DNA of 64,000 nucleotides, from the NCBI GenBank assembly GCA_024331095.1, contig JANDJE010000002.1, positions 62,001 through 126,000 on the forward strand, read 5' to 3'. Below the pieces are notes generated by a model. It saw nothing but the letters and a program-made list of their open reading frames with translations, was not told the DNA's origin and made no database searches. Each line of letters starts with the position of its first letter. Positions within the stretch are counted from its first letter, which is position 1. The position numbers were made by a program, and so were the translations under genes. Of this stretch, positions 52,411 through 61,968 are shown piece after piece. Source of the DNA: Nitrospira sp. GTDB taxonomy: Bacteria > Nitrospirota > Nitrospiria > Nitrospirales > Nitrospiraceae.

Positions 52411-55400
52411 TCAAGAACGCGCCGGAGCGGGCTCGCGTTCAAAGTTCGGTTGCGGTTCCTCTTGATCCGGTTGATCCGGCGCGATGAGGTCGAGCGGAAC
52501 GGTCAGCGAATTCACAAGGACATCGACCGCGAGTTGAGCCAAGCCCGACAGACCCGATGCGAAGGATTTGATCGGAAGATAGGTCACTTCCGGATTGTGG
52601 AGGGATCCCTTGACGGCAAAGATCGCGGTGGCCAACCCCTTTCGCTCTCCGGCGAAGATCCGTCCGAACAGAGGAATCGCCTTCAAGAACTGCGAATACG
52701 AGCCGAACGGACTCACGGCGGTCACCAGATTCAGACGATCGGTCGGCAAATCGTATTGTCCCACAGCCGTAATTTTCAGAATCGGGCTGTCAATGATCAG
52801 ATCGCCCGTCTCGAAGACACCATTCTTGACGGCCACGCTCCCGGTAATCGTGTTGTAGGGCAGTCCCTCCTTCTCCAGATCGACCTTGCCTTGGAGTACC
52901 GCCGGAAGATTCAAGAGACCGATGATCTTCCAGATCACCCGTTCGTTCGATTTAAAAATGCGCCCGTTTTGAAGCAGCACCTCGACTTTTCCCTCGAGCG
53001 ACGGGTACACACCGTGCGGATTGCGCCCATGCCCCCTGAGAGAGCCGCTCACGCGCATCTCGCCGGTCATTCCATGAGCATCCTTGGCGTCGGTCAAACT
53101 CAGAACGTCATCAACCGGCAGGCCCGTGGCGCGAAACGACGCCTCCACGTCGGCGGGAGCTCCGCGAGGAAGCTGCGCCACAAGACGCCCGGCGATTTGG
53201 CCGGCGTTCGACGCGCCGGAAATCCGATCGACATCGACGACGCCGTCCTGAATGTTCACGCGCGCAGAAAGCGAGGTGAACCGCACCCGCTCATAATGGC
53301 CCCGAGCGACCGACGCCGACATCGTCACCTGCGAGGTCGCCGCCAAATTTTCCAAAAATTCCCGAACGACCGACCGATCCCCTTTAGGAAGCAGCAGGCC
53401 GAGGTCCATCCGGCTCGATTCGATTTTCCCGACGATCACGGGTTTTGAGGCCCAGTTCTTGACGGCGGCCTCAATGGCGACGTCGCTGTCAAGGACGGTG
53501 AACGACAACCGTTTGATCTCGGCCCCGTTGCGCACCAACTTGATCCGCGCATAGAGATCTTGAAGCCGACCGTCTCCTCCGACGCCCCCCACCGTCGCCA
53601 GGCCGTTGGTCAGCGCGACCCATCCGGTCACCCGCCATGCGCTCCAGTCCGTCCCCTTGCCTTTGACATCGAGCGAAATCTCCGCGCTGCCGGCCTCCAG
53701 TCCTCCTTTCGAGATCCACTCGGGCAAGCGGGACAACGACAACGTTCCGGTCGTGAGCGACATATCGATGCTGAAGGGATCTCCGAAGACCATGCGTCCT
53801 TTGGCCGGCACTTGAATGGGCGGCACGATCAATTCCAGACGGCTTACGGAAAGATCACCGGACTTCGTCACGTCGCCTTCGAATTCGATGGTCGCCGGCG
53901 CGCCGATCGGCTTTTCTCCCAAACCCGGAACGGCGACTTTCGATTGGTCAAACACCACGACGCCGCGAAGATGCGGCGTCGAAGCGGCTCCCGTGAGCGT
54001 CGCCGTCGCAACCAGACGCCCTTCCATCGAACCCGGCGAAACCTTCCCCCCCAACATGCGGGTCATGTCCGAGGCCGGTCCGCTGGCCCGGATCGAAAAA
54101 TCCTGTAGCAGACTCGATTCTCCGCCCGTCACCGTCCCCTGAACCTCGATGAGCGTCTCGCCGAGATGCCCGCTGATCTGCTCCAAACGCACGGCTCCGC
54201 CGGCCAACGCGAACCGGCCTTGCAATCCCGTTAGCCGTTCAGGCAACGCCGGATGAGCGAAGCTGACGGCTCTGACGAGAATCTCCCCACCGGTGAACCT
54301 GACGCCGTCCGGCCGAGCCGGCGAGCCTGCCAGGCGAAACGTGGGCTCCACCACACCCTCCGCATCCCGAATATCGGCCAGAAGGCGCGTCAACGATTCG
54401 GCCTTCACCGTTGTCTCGAGAACGTCCATCAAATGAGACGCACTCGTTCTTCCTGCAATCTCCAGCTCAAGCCACGGCCCGGCTTCCAAAAACGAGAGCA
54501 TCGCCTTTCCATCCGTCAGTTCCATCTCCCCGTACAGTCCGGTGATGCCCGATGCCCGGACTCGCCCGGGCTCCACAAACACGCGACAGGCGACGTTTTT
54601 CGCCAACACTCGGTCTTGGCCGATCATCCCCTGCGCATCCTGCACGTAAAACTCTCCGGAAATCGACGGACGCATGCCCTCCGTCGCAGCCCCGGTCAAC
54701 GTGGCGTTCATCACTTGCACTCTGCCGTCGATGCGCCGTTCGTTCAACACGGCGGGAAGCCGCGGATCGATCCACGCAACCGGAACGGTCTGCATCAACT
54801 GGGACAGCAAAACCGGCGAGCTGCCGAACGTCACCGAGAACGCCGGCTGCGCCGTCATGAGTCCCGACACGTTCGCTTTGCCGGTCAGCGTCATATCGTT
54901 GAGTCGAACCGACATCTCGGACAGCAAAACGTCGTATCCGACGACGCCGGGCATCACTTGGACGGCGCCGTGCAACGTTACCGTTCCCTGCAATTGCTCC
55001 GGAACGGGCCGGGGCCCCAGAAAATCGGCGATGTCCCGAATCCCAAGGGCGGCGGCTTCCAAACGGCCGTCGAATTGAAACGGCGCGGCTTGCATAGTCT
55101 CGTCCGCATCGGCGAGCGGGGCACGCATTTCCGACAGTCGTATCGATCCGTTCAGCGATACGGCCGCCCCTCCCTGCTCTTTCGGCTGAACAATGGAGAG
55201 CCGCACCTCGGCCGCTCTTTGCTCCGGGTGCACAAAAAGCGTCGCCCCCACACGTTCCAACTTGATGGAACGAACGCCGTCGCTCCCGGCCTCGTCGATG
55301 ACCGTGACGATTCCATCGGTAAGCGACGCTTCCTGAACACGGAACGTTCGGAACATGGCTTCCATTGTCCGCCGATCGACTTCCGCCTGTTCATTGAAAC

Positions 55401-55782
55401 CGTCGGCGACGTTCCAGCGGCCCGCTTCATCCCGCCTGAGCGTGAACACGGGCTCCTCGACCGACAATCGCTTCCCGACGATTTGCTTGCGGAGAAGAGG
55501 AAACATCCGCACGACGAGATCGACCCGTTTTGCCGTCAACAGGATCTGATCAGAGCCGGGATCGTAAACGGTGACCCCGGTCAATTCGACCCGCGCGCGA
55601 GGAAAGAGCGCGAACGTGACGTCATCGACGTGGATTTTTCTCCCGAGATTCGCCTCGAGCTGTTCCAGAACGAATCCTTTGAGGTAATCTTCGCCCGTCA
55701 GATGCTTGGAAAATGTCAGGAAGGCAAGAAGTGAAACGCACAGGACAAGACCGATCAGCACCGCAACGCGCAGAGAGAACAC
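52411..55782 (-). CDS. AsmA-family envelope protein (1123 aa)
   Basis: The protein has one N-terminal membrane helix (VAVLIGLVLCVSLLAFLTF) followed by an AsmA N-terminal domain (LEANLGRKIHVDDVTFALFPRARVEL). Very long beta-strand repeats follow, ending in an AsmA-like C-terminal domain with the family segment DLIIDSPILKITAVGQYDL. Large AsmA relatives (TamB, YhdP) bridge the inner and outer membranes and move lipids. GTG 55782 is the first start in the frame, but its GGGAGG lies too close, so the true start is uncertain. A promoter stands upstream. Confidence 0.85.
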   Translation of the reverse strand: MFSLRVAVLIGLVLCVSLLAFLTFSKHLTGEDYLKGFVLEQLEANLGRKIHVDDVTFALFPRARVELTGVTVYDPGSDQILLTAKRVDLVVRMFPLLRKQIVGKRLSVEEPVFTLRRDEAGRWNVADGFNEQAEVDRRTMEAMFRTFRVQEASLTDGIVTVIDEAGSDGVRSIKLERVGATLFVHPEQRAAEVRLSIVQPKEQGGAAVSLNGSIRLSEMRAPLADADETMQAAPFQFDGRLEAAALGIRDIADFLGPRPVPEQLQGTVTLHGAVQVMPGVVGYDVLLSEMSVRLNDMTLTGKANVSGLMTAQPAFSVTFGSSPVLLSQLMQTVPVAWIDPRLPAVLNERRIDGRVQVMNATLTGAATEGMRPSISGEFYVQDAQGMIGQDRVLAKNVACRVFVEPGRVRASGITGLYGEMELTDGKAMLSFLEAGPWLELEIAGRTSASHLMDVLETTVKAESLTRLLADIRDAEGVVEPTFRLAGSPARPDGVRFTGGEILVRAVSFAHPALPERLTGLQGRFALAGGAVRLEQISGHLGETLIEVQGTVTGGESSLLQDFSIRASGPASDMTRMLGGKVSPGSMEGRLVATATLTGAASTPHLRGVVVFDQSKVAVPGLGEKPIGAPATIEFEGDVTKSGDLSVSRLELIVPPIQVPAKGRMVFGDPFSIDMSLTTGTLSLSRLPEWISKGGLEAGSAEISLDVKGKGTDWSAWRVTGWVALTNGLATVGGVGGDGRLQDLYARIKLVRNGAEIKRLSFTVLDSDVAIEAAVKNWASKPVIVGKIESSRMDLGLLLPKGDRSVVREFLENLAATSQVTMSASVARGHYERVRFTSLSARVNIQDGVVDVDRISGASNAGQIAGRLVAQLPRGAPADVEASFRATGLPVDDVLSLTDAKDAHGMTGEMRVSGSLRGHGRNPHGVYPSLEGKVEVLLQNGRIFKSNERVIWKIIGLLNLPAVLQGKVDLEKEGLPYNTITGSVAVKNGVFETGDLIIDSPILKITAVGQYDLPTDRLNLVTAVSPFGSYSQFLKAIPLFGRIFAGERKGLATAIFAVKGSLHNPEVTYLPIKSFASGLSGLAQLAVDVLVNSLTVPLDLIAPDQPDQEEPQPNFEREPAPARS

Positions 55783-55914: not shown

Positions 55915-56397
55915 TCATGGGCAGGATTGACAGGCGGCCTGTTTGATCGTCTCGGTGGCGCTCGATGCGGGCAGAGGGAAGAGCGGGTGGCGCGTGGGAT
56001 AGTCGTCGGACAAAACGAGTTGCTTGCAGAGCCTTGTGCGGGGATTCATCAGCAACGGGCCTCTCAAATTGGCCGTCACGCGTCCCGGGTCATCCGATGG
56101 GATCGTCAAAATGACCGCGATGGAGAACGCCTCTCCGCTCTTTCCTTGGATCTCCGCCAACGCGTCTTCAGTGACATCCACCCGATATTCCTCTCCCACA
56201 AACAGATCGGGATCCATGATGACAAAAGCCAGCGCCGGCTCATCGAGCGACTGAAGCCACTTAAACGGAGCCTCCGTATCGTGATCGAGCATGACGTATC
56301 GCCGGCTTTCCGGAAATCCAAGCACGCCGGATGGGAACGTCAGCACACGCCCTTCATCGATCTCCAGCACCCCGAAACGACTGGATGAATACTTCAT
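55915..56397 (-). CDS. fliW: Flagellar assembly factor FliW
   Basis: FliW binds flagellin and also binds CsrA, releasing CsrA's block on flagellin translation as flagellin is secreted. The 160-aa protein shows LTFPSGVLGFPESRRYVMLDHD, FKWLQSLDEPALAFVIMDPDLF and the later GPLLMNPRTRLCKQLVL, which are conserved. It overlaps csrA by 4 bp (ATGA). It is the last gene of the sigma-28-driven unit. A Cys-rich tail (CKQ, CQSCP) is unusual for the family. Confidence 0.93.
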   Translation of the reverse strand: MKYSSSRFGVLEIDEGRVLTFPSGVLGFPESRRYVMLDHDTEAPFKWLQSLDEPALAFVIMDPDLFVGEEYRVDVTEDALAEIQGKSGEAFSIAVILTIPSDDPGRVTANLRGPLLMNPRTRLCKQLVLSDDYPTRHPLFPLPASSATETIKQAACQSCP

Positions 56398-56657
56398 GGC
56401 TTGCCCGTCCCGCCTCCTCGTGAACCCGACTCCCTTTCACATAGGCGCCGAAAGGCATCGATCGGAATCACTCCGGTTTGCGACGCCGACCGATTCTCCC
56501 GAAGAATTCTGGCATAGACTTCGTCACGGTGCACCTCGATATGGTGAGGCGCCTCGATTCCCAAACGAACTTGCCCGTCCTTGATGCCCAGCACGATCAC
56601 CTTGATGTCGGGCCCGATGGTCACGCCCTCCCCGCGCCGACGACTCAAAACCAGCAT
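56394..56657 (-). CDS. csrA: Carbon storage regulator / flagellin translational repressor CsrA
   Basis: CsrA is an RNA-binding dimer that blocks ribosome access at GGA motifs. The 87-aa protein has the standard MLVLSRRRGEGVTIG start, IKVIVLGIKDGQVRLGIEAP and HHIEVHRDEVY; the arginine near the end of the core is present. A ~25-residue basic/Gly-rich tail extends beyond the usual 61-75 aa. It overlaps fliW. Its place in the same transcript as flgM-flgL suggests feedback on flagellar mRNAs. Confidence 0.95.
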   Translation of the reverse strand: MLVLSRRRGEGVTIGPDIKVIVLGIKDGQVRLGIEAPHHIEVHRDEVYARILRENRSASQTGVIPIDAFRRLCERESGSRGGGTGKP

Positions 56658-56727
56658 GACGTTCGCTCCGAAACAACCGCCTGACCCACGACATAATCGG
56701 CCGCTTGCATCGAGAACTCCGCAACCG

Positions 56728-58494
56728 CTACCTCAAGTATCGGAGCAGTGAACTGTCGAACACTTGGGTCAAGGTTCGACTGGCGGCCTCGATGGCATAC
56801 TGCTGCAACACCAAATCCGATACGGCCTTCGCCAAATCGACGTCTTCGATCCGAGAAAGAAGTTCGCTGTAGAAGGACTTGGCCTCTTCCAACTGATCGG
56901 CGCCGACCGCCATGCGGTTCGACAAGGCGCCGATCTCGCCCTCCAGGCTTGCCACATGCGAAATCCCGCCGGTCAGCCCGCCCAACGCCTCGGTGATGCC
57001 CGTCCGATCGTTGCTCCGCAATGCACGCACCAACTGTTTGACGGAGCCGAAGATATCGGCTCCGCTCGCGGTAAAGGCACGGCTTCCCGGCAGATTGGTC
57101 GGAACAGTTTGGCCCGGCCCGACCTCAATCGGTTGAAGCTCATCGTCACCCTGGTATTGCATTCCCGTCACAACGGCAAAGAGGTCGCCGGCCGCCGGGG
57201 CTCCTGAGTCATCGGTGATCCTCAACCGTATACCTTCCACGGTGAGAGGCTGGCCGGACAAATAGGGTTGATTGGCCGCTACGGTTTTAGGCGTCAGACT
57301 GATATCAAACTGATCCCCCGTCTGAGGACCACCCCCCTCTCCCGCCGCCAACACCACCCGCAAACCGTCGAATTCAATCGGCGCCCCAGCGACAAACACG
57401 TTGCCGGAGGAAACCGTCGTGCCGGCCGTCACATCGAGCACGGAATACTGGGTAGGCGACGTGAATTGAATCCGGTACTGATGCAACGTGAGCGATCGTG
57501 GATCGATCATCCCCGCATCCATGACTCGCGCGCTCCCTGTATTGGCCGCGCTTGCCGAGACGGTCACGGGCACGGTGACGTTCAACACCTCGTAGGTCGA
57601 AGCGCTCGTAAAGCGAATCACGTAATCATCCAGGGTCGCAGCGTTGGGATCGACCACGGCTCCCTGGCCAGCCAGCGCTCCTCCCGTATTGCCCGATCCC
57701 GGACTGACAGTCGCGGTCAACGCAAAGGGTACCTCGCCCGTGGTCGTGCTGCCTCCGTCAAAGCCTAAGCTGACTCGACTTGCCCCGCCCACAACCGAAA
57801 CCTGCGAGGTCAGGCCGTGCGAATCGGACACGATCATCAATCGCCCCCCCTCGAACGCGACCGTCACGCGCTTGCCCGCGCCGGCCAGCGTGGTATCGGC
57901 GTTGATTCTATTTTGCAACCGGCTCGCCAGTTCACTGCCCGTGAACGACTCGGTTCCCGACGTCAGATCGATGGTTCCGGATAGGACCCCGTCGACCTCC
58001 ACAAGCAACGTGTCGTTACTCCCGTTGACCAGAGAAACCGGCTCGGCAATGGGCAAGCCGGTCGCCCGCCCATGCGTGCTGGTACCGGTGAAAATGGGAT
58101 GGCCGTTCAGATCGGTATTGGCCAACTGCTGCAACTGCGCGAACAGTTGGCGGACTTCGGCGGCGCCGATGACCCGTTCGGCCGGCCCGTTCGTATCACT
58201 GCGAAACTGCACGGCGAGCTGCTGAAGACGCGGCAGCGTCCCCGACACTCCCTGTAAGACCTGATCGGAAAGATCCAGCCGCGTTTTCCCGAAGCTGATA
58301 TTCCGCAAATGTTGATCAAGACCGACAAGGGACACTCTATGATGTAACACCTGGTGAAAGGCACTCGGATCGTCGGAGGGCCGGCTGACCGCTTTTCCCG
58401 TGGAAACCTGCCGTTGCAGATCGAGCAACCGGGCTCGAGACCGTTGCAGATTGTTGGCGAGCACGCCGAAGACGTGCGATTCCGTGACGCGCAT
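56728..58494 (-). CDS. flgL: Flagellar hook-associated protein 3 (FlgL), expanded
   Basis: FlgL forms the second hook-filament junction. The 588-aa protein has the conserved flagellin-like N-terminus (NNLQRSRARLLDLQRQVSTGKAVSRPSDDP) and C-terminus (EDVDLAKAVSDLVLQQYAIEAASRT). It is much longer than the ~300-aa typical form because of a central insert. The insert holds an NDTLLVEVDGV-type flagellin-IN-like module (~158-245) and two copies of a YxIxFTSxxxYxVL(N/D)V module (~286-305 and ~335-355). Related modules occur in FlgK. It lies 14 bp after flgK. Confidence 0.93.
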   Translation of the reverse strand: MRVTESHVFGVLANNLQRSRARLLDLQRQVSTGKAVSRPSDDPSAFHQVLHHRVSLVGLDQHLRNISFGKTRLDLSDQVLQGVSGTLPRLQQLAVQFRSDTNGPAERVIGAAEVRQLFAQLQQLANTDLNGHPIFTGTSTHGRATGLPIAEPVSLVNGSNDTLLVEVDGVLSGTIDLTSGTESFTGSELASRLQNRINADTTLAGAGKRVTVAFEGGRLMIVSDSHGLTSQVSVVGGASRVSLGFDGGSTTTGEVPFALTATVSPGSGNTGGALAGQGAVVDPNAATLDDYVIRFTSASTYEVLNVTVPVTVSASAANTGSARVMDAGMIDPRSLTLHQYRIQFTSPTQYSVLDVTAGTTVSSGNVFVAGAPIEFDGLRVVLAAGEGGGPQTGDQFDISLTPKTVAANQPYLSGQPLTVEGIRLRITDDSGAPAAGDLFAVVTGMQYQGDDELQPIEVGPGQTVPTNLPGSRAFTASGADIFGSVKQLVRALRSNDRTGITEALGGLTGGISHVASLEGEIGALSNRMAVGADQLEEAKSFYSELLSRIEDVDLAKAVSDLVLQQYAIEAASRTLTQVFDSSLLRYLR

Positions 58495-58508: not shown

Positions 58509-60536
58509 CTATTTAAGGGACAAGATGGTTTGAAACATCTCGTCGGACACACGGATCAAACGCGACGCGGCCTCGAACCCCCGCTGAAACTTGATCAACG
58601 CGACGAGTTCTTCGTCCAACGACACCCCGGACACCTGGGCGCGCATGGCGTCGATTTGATCCCGCAGGATTTCTTGCGCCTGATGATCCCGATCGGTCGA
58701 ATTGACCACGACTCCGAAATCAGCCGCGAGCCGCCGATAGGCGTCTTGCAACGTTCCGGGCCCGAGATGCTCGAACGGCAGATATTGCAATCCGGCCAGC
58801 GCCAGCATGTTGGCGTTGTTGCCGGGCACCCCGTTGCGAAGCGACGAGGCGGCCACCGACGCCGGGTCGGTCAATACCGCCGAGATGGCGCGCGCCGCGT
58901 CTTCGTATGAATTGACGGACAAGGTGTCGCCGACCGCCGGCGTTCCCGTCACCGTCACGCTGATGCCGTCGAAATTGAGGGTTTGGGGACCGGTATAGGT
59001 TCCCGAGGCCGCCGTACTCAGACCGGACAGAAGACCGAGCGACGAGCGGGCGGTACCGCCGGTGACATCGACCGAAGAAGAGGAGTCGGTCGAATTCGAA
59101 GTCAGGATCAGACGATTGGTAGTCGTGTCGAACGTCACGGTCACGGTCTTCCCAGCGGCCTGCAATGTCGCGTCGGCGTTGATTTGCGTTTGGATCTCCG
59201 TCGCCAACTCGGCGCCGGACGTATAGGAACGACCCGGCGAGGCGGCGCCGGTCAGCGTGACGGTTCCCGATGCGACGCCGTCGACCGTCACCGTCAAGGT
59301 GTCGTTGCCGCCCGTCACGATCGACAGCGGCTCATCCGTCGAGGGTGCCGAGATGGACGTTCCCAAGTAATTTCCGCGAACCGACAATCCCGTCGTCCGA
59401 TCGACGATCGAATAGGCCGTGGGAGACGAAAACCGAATCTCGTAGTCGTGAAACGTCAAGAGACTGTGCGCCGTCACCGTCCCGGCCTGAGCCGAGGCGG
59501 TTCCCTGGTTGGTGACGGCCGCCGCGGTCGAAACGGTCGGATTGCTGAACACATCCAGCCCCGTGGTTCCGTTCAGCCCGAACCCGCGGCGGTGGATTTG
59601 GTTGACGGCGTTCGCCAGTGTCGCGGCGAGTTGATCGAACGTCCGCTGCAAGTCGACGATCGTGACGTCGCGAAGATCCAGCAGGCCCCGCAACCGGCCG
59701 TTGGAGATCAGATCGTTGATGCTCAGCGCCCTGGTGCCGCCCATCAGGTACCCCACGGACACATCGCCACTCCCTCCCGGCTCTTCAACGGCTGCCAATT
59801 CGCGCACGGCCTCGCCGTCCACCAGCACCTGACCGCGGGCGACGTATACCGACAGCGCCCCCGTGTCATGTTCCAGCGTCGTGAGATCGATTTTCTCAGC
59901 TAATTCGTTGACGGCCCGTTGCCGTTGGTCCCGCAAATCGTTGGCGTTTTGCCCCGTGAGCTCGGCGTTCACGATCTTGCCGTTCAACTCGGCGATCCGG
60001 TCGGACAGTCCGTTGATCTCCACGATGGTTTGCCTGACTTGAAAATTGATCGATTGCCGGGTCTCGGCAAGGTCCGACGCGGCCTGATTGAGGTTCGATG
60101 CAAGCTGCGCGGCTTTGGCGAGCAAGGCCGATCTCGCCGCCAGCTCCCCCGGATTGGTCGACACGTCCTGAATCGCTCGAAAGAATTCCGTCAAGCCGCC
60201 GGCGACGCCGTGACTGACGCCGTCTCCGAATATGTTTTCAAGACGGGACAAGGTGTCTTTGGCGATCGACAGCCTGCCCATATTCTGCCGCGACAGCGTC
60301 ACCTGCACCTCGACGAAGTGATCGACGGAACGGCGGATGGAGGCGGCATACACACCGGCGCCCACCATGCCGGGCCGACCGTTGACCGGATCGCGTTCGG
60401 ACAAGACGACCGTTTGCCTCGAATACCCGGACGTATTGACGTTCGCCACGTTGTGTCCCGTCACCGTCAACGCCAATTGCGACGTCGCCAGCGCGCTTTT
60501 GGCTATCTCAAATAAAGAACTGATTCCGCCGGTCAT
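58509..60536 (-). CDS. flgK: Flagellar hook-associated protein 1 (FlgK)
   Basis: FlgK caps the hook and joins it to FlgL. The 675-aa protein has the rod/hook N-terminal signature ALTVTGHNVANVNTSGYSRQ, a long coiled coil, and the C-terminal SGVSLDEELVALIKFQRGFEAASRLIRV that packs into the rod-like core. The central part carries a YEIRFSSPTAYSIVDRTTG module (~358-385) and an NDTLTVTVDGV flagellin-IN-like module (~407-500). The same two kinds of module appear in FlgL. It sits between flgN, its export chaperone, and flgL. Confidence 0.95.
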   Translation of the reverse strand: MTGGISSLFEIAKSALATSQLALTVTGHNVANVNTSGYSRQTVVLSERDPVNGRPGMVGAGVYAASIRRSVDHFVEVQVTLSRQNMGRLSIAKDTLSRLENIFGDGVSHGVAGGLTEFFRAIQDVSTNPGELAARSALLAKAAQLASNLNQAASDLAETRQSINFQVRQTIVEINGLSDRIAELNGKIVNAELTGQNANDLRDQRQRAVNELAEKIDLTTLEHDTGALSVYVARGQVLVDGEAVRELAAVEEPGGSGDVSVGYLMGGTRALSINDLISNGRLRGLLDLRDVTIVDLQRTFDQLAATLANAVNQIHRRGFGLNGTTGLDVFSNPTVSTAAAVTNQGTASAQAGTVTAHSLLTFHDYEIRFSSPTAYSIVDRTTGLSVRGNYLGTSISAPSTDEPLSIVTGGNDTLTVTVDGVASGTVTLTGAASPGRSYTSGAELATEIQTQINADATLQAAGKTVTVTFDTTTNRLILTSNSTDSSSSVDVTGGTARSSLGLLSGLSTAASGTYTGPQTLNFDGISVTVTGTPAVGDTLSVNSYEDAARAISAVLTDPASVAASSLRNGVPGNNANMLALAGLQYLPFEHLGPGTLQDAYRRLAADFGVVVNSTDRDHQAQEILRDQIDAMRAQVSGVSLDEELVALIKFQRGFEAASRLIRVSDEMFQTILSLK

Positions 60537-60548
60537 GGTCGCCCTCGG

Positions 60549-61052
60549 TCACCCTCGCTGATACAGAAACCCATTGGCCGACATCGATGTCCGTCTCCCA
60601 TCGCTCCCATATCCCTGCCGTTCCCGGGCGGCGGCGCTTCCGGCCGACAGCGCCTGATCGATCACCGTTCGAATCGCATCGACGAGCGCGCCGTTCCGTC
60701 TCAATCCCTCGCGGACCGATTCCGCGGCCTTGATCAGGGAGTGACGCCGCGCGCGAAGCTCTCCGGCTTCTTCCGGCATCAGCCGATCCAACACGGCTTG
60801 CCACGACGTCGGTTGAGAGAATCCCCGCCCTGCCGCGAGGTCTCGCAACGACTCATCGGCCTCTCGGGCGAGCCGTTGAAGAGACTCCAGCAGAGCCAGC
60901 CGTTCGCCGTTAATCGCGTGCAATTTCTCGATCGCAAGACTCCGGACGGCCTGACGTTCGTCTTCAAGAGTGTTCAGCAGAGATCGGCAGGCGGCTTCCT
61001 CTTGATCGAGAAGCCGAGAAAGGTCGGCCGGCGTCGGCGCATGAGACGACAT
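60549..61052 (-). CDS. flgN: FlgN-type export chaperone for FlgK/FlgL
   Basis: FlgN binds FlgK and FlgL in the cytoplasm and delivers them to the export apparatus. The 167-aa helical protein has the family layout of two long helices (LSRLLDQEEAACRSLLNTLEDE; LAIEKLHAINGERLALLESL) and a flexible C-terminal part. Sequence identity within this family is low, so the call leans on its position between flgM and flgK. The C-terminal tail (SMSANGFLYQRG) may bind substrate. Confidence 0.82.
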   Translation of the reverse strand: MSSHAPTPADLSRLLDQEEAACRSLLNTLEDERQAVRSLAIEKLHAINGERLALLESLQRLAREADESLRDLAAGRGFSQPTSWQAVLDRLMPEEAGELRARRHSLIKAAESVREGLRRNGALVDAIRTVIDQALSAGSAAARERQGYGSDGRRTSMSANGFLYQRG

Positions 61053-61131: not shown

Positions 61132-61437
61132 TCAGACGACGGCATCGGTGAGGACATGCCGGATCAATGCGTCACCCACCGTCCGGCCGCTCACGTCATA
61201 GGTCCCGTTGTCGATTTCCTGCTTGATTCGATTGATGCGTTCCATCCGAGTGGGATCGGGCTGATCGATCAAGGCCAGCATGCGCTGCAATTCTTTGGCC
61301 CGTTCGGAGATATGGACCTGATCCCCGGCGACCTCCCTGGAGACGGGTTGAGACTTGGCGCCGGAACCGTCGAGGTCCTGAACGCCCAGCAGCAGTCTGG
61401 CCAGATGATCCGCTTTTCCGTTTCCTGATATATGCAT
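61132..61437 (-). CDS. flgM: Anti-sigma-28 factor FlgM
   Basis: FlgM holds sigma-28 until the hook is finished and FlgM is exported. The 101-aa protein has the disordered N-terminal half and the conserved C-terminal sigma-binding region (VHISERAKELQRM, RINRIKQEIDNGTYDVSG). The ATG has GGAAGGAGC upstream. It is the first gene of the unit flgM-flgN-flgK-flgL-csrA-fliW, behind a sigma-28 promoter and a stable leader hairpin. Confidence 0.92.
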   Translation of the reverse strand: MHISGNGKADHLARLLLGVQDLDGSGAKSQPVSREVAGDQVHISERAKELQRMLALIDQPDPTRMERINRIKQEIDNGTYDVSGRTVGDALIRHVLTDAVV

Positions 61438-61463
61438 GCGCCAGCTCCTTCCTCTCGCGCCTC

Positions 61464-61492
61464 TCGCGACACCTTTCGCGAAGGCGTCGCGA
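61464..61492 (-). promoter_or_regulatory. Stable hairpin in the flgM leader
   Basis: Plus-strand arms TCGCGACACCTT (61464-61475) and AAGGCGTCGCGA (61481-61492) enclose a 5-nt loop. In the transcribed strand all 12 positions pair, one as G-U. It lies inside the predicted flgM leader, with two overlapping GGA motifs (AGGAAGGAGC) in the ribosome-binding site just after it. It may protect the mRNA or present a CsrA site. Confidence 0.7.
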
Positions 61493-61515
61493 TGCTTTCA
61501 CTCCTCGTCGATCTC

Positions 61516-61542
61516 TTATCGGTACGTATCGAAAAAACTTGA
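61516..61542 (-). promoter_or_regulatory. Sigma-28 (FliA) class promoter for flgM unit
   Basis: Minus-strand TCAAGTTT (61542-61535), an 11-bp spacer and ACCGATAA (61523-61516) match the flagellar sigma-28 consensus TAAAGTTT-N11-GCCGATAA at 7/8 in each box with exact spacing. It lies 16 bp after the flgJ stop and about 80 bp before flgM. Confidence 0.88.
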
Positions 61543-61557
61543 GAATTTTTTATAGCC

Positions 61558-61968
61558 TTACGACCGCTGCTGCTCGGCATACGCCAGAAACATGCGATGG
61601 ATCCCGATGCCGCCCGATTCCGCGGCCCGCCTCCCGATTTCCTGATCGGATAGGAAGTGAAAGTAGGCGCCTTGTTTGTCCACGAGGGCCCCTTGAGGAA
61701 TGGTTTCCCTCATCACCTTCAACAAATACGAGATGAAGTACGCTTCAAATTCCCGACCGGCTTCGACCAGTTGTCGGCGGGCCTCTTCTCCGTGATGCGG
61801 GGCGTCAATCCGATCATCCGGCACCCGATGACCCGGCACAGTTCGATCCATTAGACTCCGCAGACTCCGATCCCATGAGATCGAGATTCCGCCGTCGGGC
61901 ACCGCTTCAGAACACGACGGCCGCGATGAGAAAAACGCTCCGGCTGGGAGACTTGACGCATTCACCAT
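61558..61968 (-). CDS. flgJ: Rod-binding protein, FlgJ N-terminal-domain type
   Basis: This 136-aa protein corresponds to the rod-capping domain of FlgJ: EAGREFEAYFISYLLKVMRETIP and the C-terminal segment SDQEIGRRAAESGGIGIHRMFLAY. It lacks the glucosaminidase domain found in enterobacterial FlgJ, as in many other phyla, where a separate enzyme opens the wall. ATG 61968 is chosen because AAAGGAAA lies about 10 nt upstream. The longer frame lies inside flgI. It is the last gene of the ring unit flgH-flgI-flgJ in this window. Confidence 0.86.
   Translation of the reverse strand: MVNASSLPAGAFFSSRPSCSEAVPDGGISISWDRSLRSLMDRTVPGHRVPDDRIDAPHHGEEARRQLVEAGREFEAYFISYLLKVMRETIPQGALVDKQGAYFHFLSDQEIGRRAAESGGIGIHRMFLAYAEQQRS

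Follow-up and report, generated by a model that had tools for sequence, protein, structure and literature searches.

The stretch of Nitrospira DNA analysed here, a window of 64,000 nucleotides, contains a run of flagellar genes on the minus strand in which basal-body genes ending in flgJ are followed by flgM, flgN, flgK, flgL, csrA and fliW (Table 1). Pfam searches bear out the names that an earlier sequence-only reading had given to FlgM, FlgN, FlgK, FlgL, CsrA and FliW, and the identity of flgJ, whose own Pfam match is weak, is supported by its place after flgI in relatives. In nearly all Nitrospira loci that are long enough, flgM-flgN-flgK-flgL, with csrA and fliW, lie contiguously on one strand behind a sigma-28-type site; in the N. 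defluvii-type group, flgN went undetected by the search. By reading of open reading frames, and under putative names, the run also includes fliI, fliJ, fliK, flgD, flgE, fliL-fliM-fliN-fliP-fliR, flhB, flhA, flhF, flhG, fliA, flgF, flgG and flgA, which lead into the window's flgH-flgI-flgJ. The FliA gene belongs to the same run and the same contig; it lies about 3 kb past the right edge of the window and about 6 kb upstream of the site before flgM. Its product scores 253.7 bits against TIGR02479, for which the NCBIfam curated cut-off is 189.6, and contains sigma regions 2, 3 and 4.

The site before flgM, here called P_flgM, had been described in the sequence-only reading as TCAAGTTT-N11-ACCGATAA on the minus strand (61542 to 61516), situated between flgJ and flgM and matching the sigma-28 consensus at 14 of 16 positions. 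Sequence, coordinates, spacing and score all prove exact when the site is compared with TAAAGTTT-N11-GCCGATAA, the E. coli form of the consensus, and the location is likewise correct, with a gap of 120 nt between the flgJ stop codon (61560-61558) and the flgM ATG at 61437. From the end of the -10 box to this ATG, on the same strand, there are 79 nt, and likewise in the relatives scored. P_flgM is the best N11 match of the 64 kb by two matches and the only one to score above 12; a score of at least 14 at N11 is expected 0.012 times in a window of this size, and none of 20,000 shuffled versions of the flgJ-flgM gap reached 14 at either N11 or N12.

The start M-[HQE]-[IV]-S-G of FlgM is conserved in relatives, so that the ATG and the predicted leader of about 72 nt appear sound. 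This leader contains a strong hairpin, GCGACGCC..GGTGTCGC (61438-61495), with a computed RNA fold of -29.7 kcal/mol for 61419-61509. Several GGA motifs furthermore lie near the ribosome-binding site of flgM, and hairpin and motifs together point to a possible translational control of flgM.

Table 1. Features of the flgM region and the flagellin gene; positions are those of the window unless another contig is named.
Feature	Position	Strand	Basis or remark
flgJ (rod-binding domain), final gene of the upstream basal-body run	61558..61968	-	PF10135 weak, E 4e-4, under the curated cut-off
P_flgM -35 box TCAAGTTT	61535..61542	-	7/8 against TAAAGTTT; 1.8-2.0 bits per column on average in the genus
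P_flgM spacer, 11 nt (genus: 11 or 12)	61524..61534	-	unconserved, 0.4-0.8 bits per column on average
P_flgM -10 box ACCGATAA	61516..61523	-	7/8 against GCCGATAA; 1.7-1.9 bits per column on average in the genus
Predicted flgM leader, about 72 nt	61438..61510	-	start placed about 7 nt past the -10 box, from the promoter position
flgM, anti-sigma-28 factor	61132..61437	-	PF04316, E 7e-15
flgN, export chaperone	60549..61052	-	PF05130, E 3e-18
flgK, hook-filament junction	58509..60536	-	PF22638/PF06429
flgL, hook-filament junction	56728..58494	-	Flagellin_N/C; position and length
Decayed P_csrA CGGAGTTC-N12-GCCGATTA	56694..56721	-	11/16; -10 box survives, -35 box lost; position -64, as in other Nitrospira
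csrA, RNA-binding translational regulator	56394..56657	-	PF02599, E 1e-22
fliW, CsrA antagonist	55915..56397	-	PF02623, E 9e-35; 4-nt overlap with the end of csrA
Flagellin gene	14972-15799 of contig C50, same genome (locus L198)	-	leader with CsrA-type hairpin

Promoters in front of csrA

The sequence-only reading had placed CsrA and FliW in one late operon with FlgM. The gene order behind the sigma-28-type site agrees with this, but most Nitrospira carry a separate csrA promoter, which was invisible to that reading, as the window's lineage has only a decayed version of it. Specifically, a sigma-28-type promoter of the form TMAAGTTT-N11/12-RCCGATAR, here P_csrA, stands about 65 nt (range 45-72 nt) before csrA in most species of the genus. 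Outside the window's subclade it scores at least 12 in 56 of 60 loci (12-15/16), and in the remaining four TCAAG and ACCGATA can still be recognised. The score falls to 8-11 in the six subclade members whose csrA region was scored. These six form one clade with a support of 1.0 in a tree of FlgI, FlgM and FlgK, and a single loss therefore explains the decay. In the sister families, csrA and fliW are present and P_csrA is absent, so the promoter appears to have been gained by Nitrospira or its near ancestors.

From flgM to csrA and fliW the genes are closely spaced, with no convincing terminator seen between them, and in the window's lineage csrA-fliW would probably depend on P_flgM or on read-through. 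It is conceivable, though rather unlikely, that csrA and fliW here still have a promoter of their own and are not the simple tail of the flgM unit, be it from what is left of the sigma-28 site at 56721, through a different sigma factor or from a promoter within flgL. At the orthologous position, the residual site (11/16) does retain GCCGATTA as its -10 box, and B. subtilis csrA is said, in work by Yakhnin from 2007, to have more than one promoter; yet its -35 box has been destroyed, the scores in close relatives are 8-10/16, and a consensus scan shows no sigma-70-like site before csrA in the window.

The flgJ-flgM gap and read-through

That P_flgM splits the flagellar cluster, as had been proposed, is an overstatement. 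The flgJ-flgM gap has no terminator and all genes lie on one strand, so that read-through from the basal-body genes is to be expected, and P_flgM is probably an internal promoter added on top of this read-through, not a separator of units. A truly separate flgM-fliW unit, in which the basal-body transcript stops short of flgM and P_flgM is the sole source of transcription, would fit a 120-nt gap that holds a promoter and is followed by a strong leader hairpin, but we judge it improbable: no terminator-like site was found in the gap, the hairpin has no T run behind it and lies downstream of the promoter, the gap measures just 21-22 nt in some relatives, and in the parallel E. coli cases, flgAMN/flgMN and flgKL, both promoters contribute transcripts (PMC4183435).

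At the other end, no terminator was found after fliW, which leaves the 3' end of the flgM unit unmarked. The next gene encodes a 1123-aa AsmA/YhdP-family protein (52411-55782, minus strand), again with no terminator seen between, and among the relatives scanned it adjoins fliW only in the window's subclade.

Conservation of P_flgM in Nitrospira and its sister families

In the draft metagenome-assembled genome of 2.6 Mb to which the window belongs, the E. coli consensus gives 5 matches with two mismatches, and with up to three mismatches it gives 16 matches against 19 for a reversed-pattern control, that is, without enrichment. A lone match to this consensus is therefore weak evidence, and conservation decides. 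The search for the same spaced boxes upstream of flgM in related genomes, which the sequence-only reading had suggested, found 12-15 of 16 positions matching in all 77 Nitrospira loci scored (the 76 of the named set and L277, which had been dropped for a misplaced start and scores 13/16). Across 418 control regions from the same loci, upstream of flgI, flgJ, flgN, flgK, flgL and fliW, the maximum was 11.

Given that the E. coli consensus is unusable alone for a whole-genome scan, the genus pattern TMAAGTTYN{11,12}RCCGATAA was used instead, and its one match in this genome is the P_flgM site. In 59 genomes of the genus the pattern has 94 matches, against 1 for the reversed control. An exact match stands before flgM in 46 of the 49 flgM-bearing genomes and a version with one mismatch in the other 3, and genomes that have no flgM also have no flgM site. 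The sister families of the order, furthermore, keep flgI-flgJ-flgM-flgN-flgK-flgL and, ahead of flgM, carry TAAAGTTT-N12-TCCGATAC or a site much like it. At the protein level, the window's FlgM is 94-98% identical to FlgM of several Nitrospira MAGs, in a set that includes N. moscoviensis and N. defluvii.

The conservation footprint is confined mainly to the two boxes, which hardly vary, while spacer and flanks are variable. That the motif is a chance match within a region conserved for other reasons has in its favour that this genome holds about as many near-matches to the E. coli consensus as chance would give, but this footprint refutes it in practice, together with a spacing fixed at 11-12 nt throughout the 77 loci and the sister families and with the absence of a matching site before any of the six control genes, and we give it almost no credence. 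Boxes, FliA gene and conservation in the genus and its sister families instead support, at the sequence level, the sigma-28-type promoter that had been claimed before flgM, and P_flgM is very probably a class-3 (late) sigma-28 (FliA) promoter inside the flagellar gene run, behind the basal-body genes that end in flgJ.

Most species have a P_flgM spacer of 12 nt; on the tree, the 11-nt form is found in two clades, including that of the window, and relatives with N12 may differ from those with N11 in promoter strength. A tie between the 11-nt spacing and the loss of P_csrA was considered and rejected, since the second N11 clade keeps P_csrA. About 8-13 nt past the -10 box, the genus also has a conserved CTCGAC-like stretch that reaches 1.6-1.9 bits per column; its version in the window is ATCGAC, at about 61511-61505, which coincides with the predicted transcript start or follows it closely.

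Late flagellar control and the flagellin gene

The flagellin gene is a standard sigma-28 target, and in this genome it has TTAAGTCC-N11-ACCGATAA 123 nt upstream, corresponding to a conserved TYAAGTCY-N11-RCCGATAA that lies 122-129 nt upstream of the gene in most loci. Its leader contains the hairpin GCTTCTG-CACGGACGT-CGGAGGC, whose loop carries CACGGACG (genus form CACGGAYG), and AAGGAGGA, with the second GGA at the ribosome-binding site. Relatives have the same leader design, and their stems differ in sequence but still pair, such as GCTTCTG/CGGAAGC and TTCCTCG/CGAGGAG. The attempt to fit one consensus structure to all flagellin leaders failed, given divergent leaders and variable loop length, and the hairpins were located one by one. 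The B. subtilis hag leader is a CsrA target of GGA-hairpin design. The flagellin leader has this same design, which makes flagellin the most likely target of csrA-fliW here, with predicted binding of CsrA. In B. subtilis, flagellin translation is controlled by CsrA-FliW (PMC6529632, PMC7430163).

A sigma-28-driven flgM operon that includes csrA and fliW is already known from B. subtilis, where flgM, flgK and flgL are sigma-D-dependent late genes (PMC4054197) and where a passage of the same paper, citing Mirel 1994, describes flgM to flgL as co-transcribed. The sigma-D-dependent operon flgM-flgN(yvyG)-flgK-flgL-yviE-fliW-csrA has the same genes in nearly the same order, with a promoter before flgM, and functionally its arrangement equals that in Nitrospira. 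Nitrospira differs in that csrA stands before fliW and in that, in most species, csrA is directly preceded by a further sigma-28 promoter. The B. subtilis flgM operon is not known to close the basal-body run; it has yviE as an additional gene, and its fliW comes ahead of csrA. In E. coli, the FliA sites are TAAAGATT-N11-GCCGATAA for flgM and TCAAGTCC-N11-GCCGATAA for flgK, and flgMN and flgKL are also read from upstream class-2 operons, which makes these late promoters internal (PMC4183435). The class-3 promoters of flgMN and flgKL in E. coli and Salmonella resemble P_flgM in site form and internal placement, but there flgMN and flgKL are two separate units. To our knowledge, E. coli and Salmonella have no fliW; their csrA lies outside the flagellar cluster. 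In Eubacterium and Roseburia, flgM through csrA are clustered in one motility locus as here, while the promoter analysis in that work was limited to flagellin genes, and its consensus is shorter and more widely spaced (PMC3720852).

In the model judged most likely, the transcript start, FliA dependence and FlgM feedback are drawn from established flagellar biology, and read-through is expected. Until the hook-basal body has been finished, this read-through would probably give weak transcription of flgM and the genes beyond it. Upon completion, FlgM would be exported and free FliA could fire P_flgM, which would supply more FlgM, as negative feedback on its own promoter, and more FlgN, FlgK and FlgL while junction and filament are built. 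In this species, P_flgM firing would also raise CsrA and FliW, the controllers of flagellin translation, while in most other Nitrospira csrA-fliW would additionally be fired from its own sigma-28 promoter.

Nitrospira are nitrite oxidisers and comammox bacteria, and the literature searched yielded no description of their flagellar promoters, the sole paper that combines Nitrospira, FlgM and FliA being a sigma-54 study; no description of the gain and loss of P_csrA was found there either. The sites before flgM, csrA, fliC and others offer a well-supported set of late flagellar promoters for the genus. On balance, we lean slightly towards a history in which the genus gained a sigma-28 promoter dedicated to csrA-fliW, which the sister families lack, so that the control of flagellin translation was set apart from FlgM, and in which this lineage lost that promoter again, thereby tying the supply of CsrA-FliW to the FlgM/FlgKL unit. 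If true, the gain and loss of P_csrA would represent a natural rewiring between two checkpoints of filament assembly, FlgM at the level of transcription and CsrA-FliW at that of translation, and a testable case of their coupling or uncoupling.

Two further sigma-28-type sites were observed. In the Nitrospira relatives L064, L067, L059 and L055, a convergent conserved site is found about 10 kb away from P_flgM. It precedes, by 67-69 nt, a DUF3391-HD (HD-GYP-like) gene whose product is probably a late-class cyclic-di-GMP phosphodiesterase; this site was not seen beside fliW in the window. Its interpretation as coding sequence (KF..FAD) was rejected, as no long homologous frame covers the site in the loci checked and the start of the HD-domain gene follows about 67-69 nt later. 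The second site, at L198 9722-9696 on the minus strand, stands directly before the gene for a DNA-binding protein of the HTH_17 family (73-76 aa), ahead of chemotaxis and motor genes. It is orthologous in L199, L201 and L202 and conserved in several Nitrospira, and the HTH_17 protein is possibly a late flagellar regulator.
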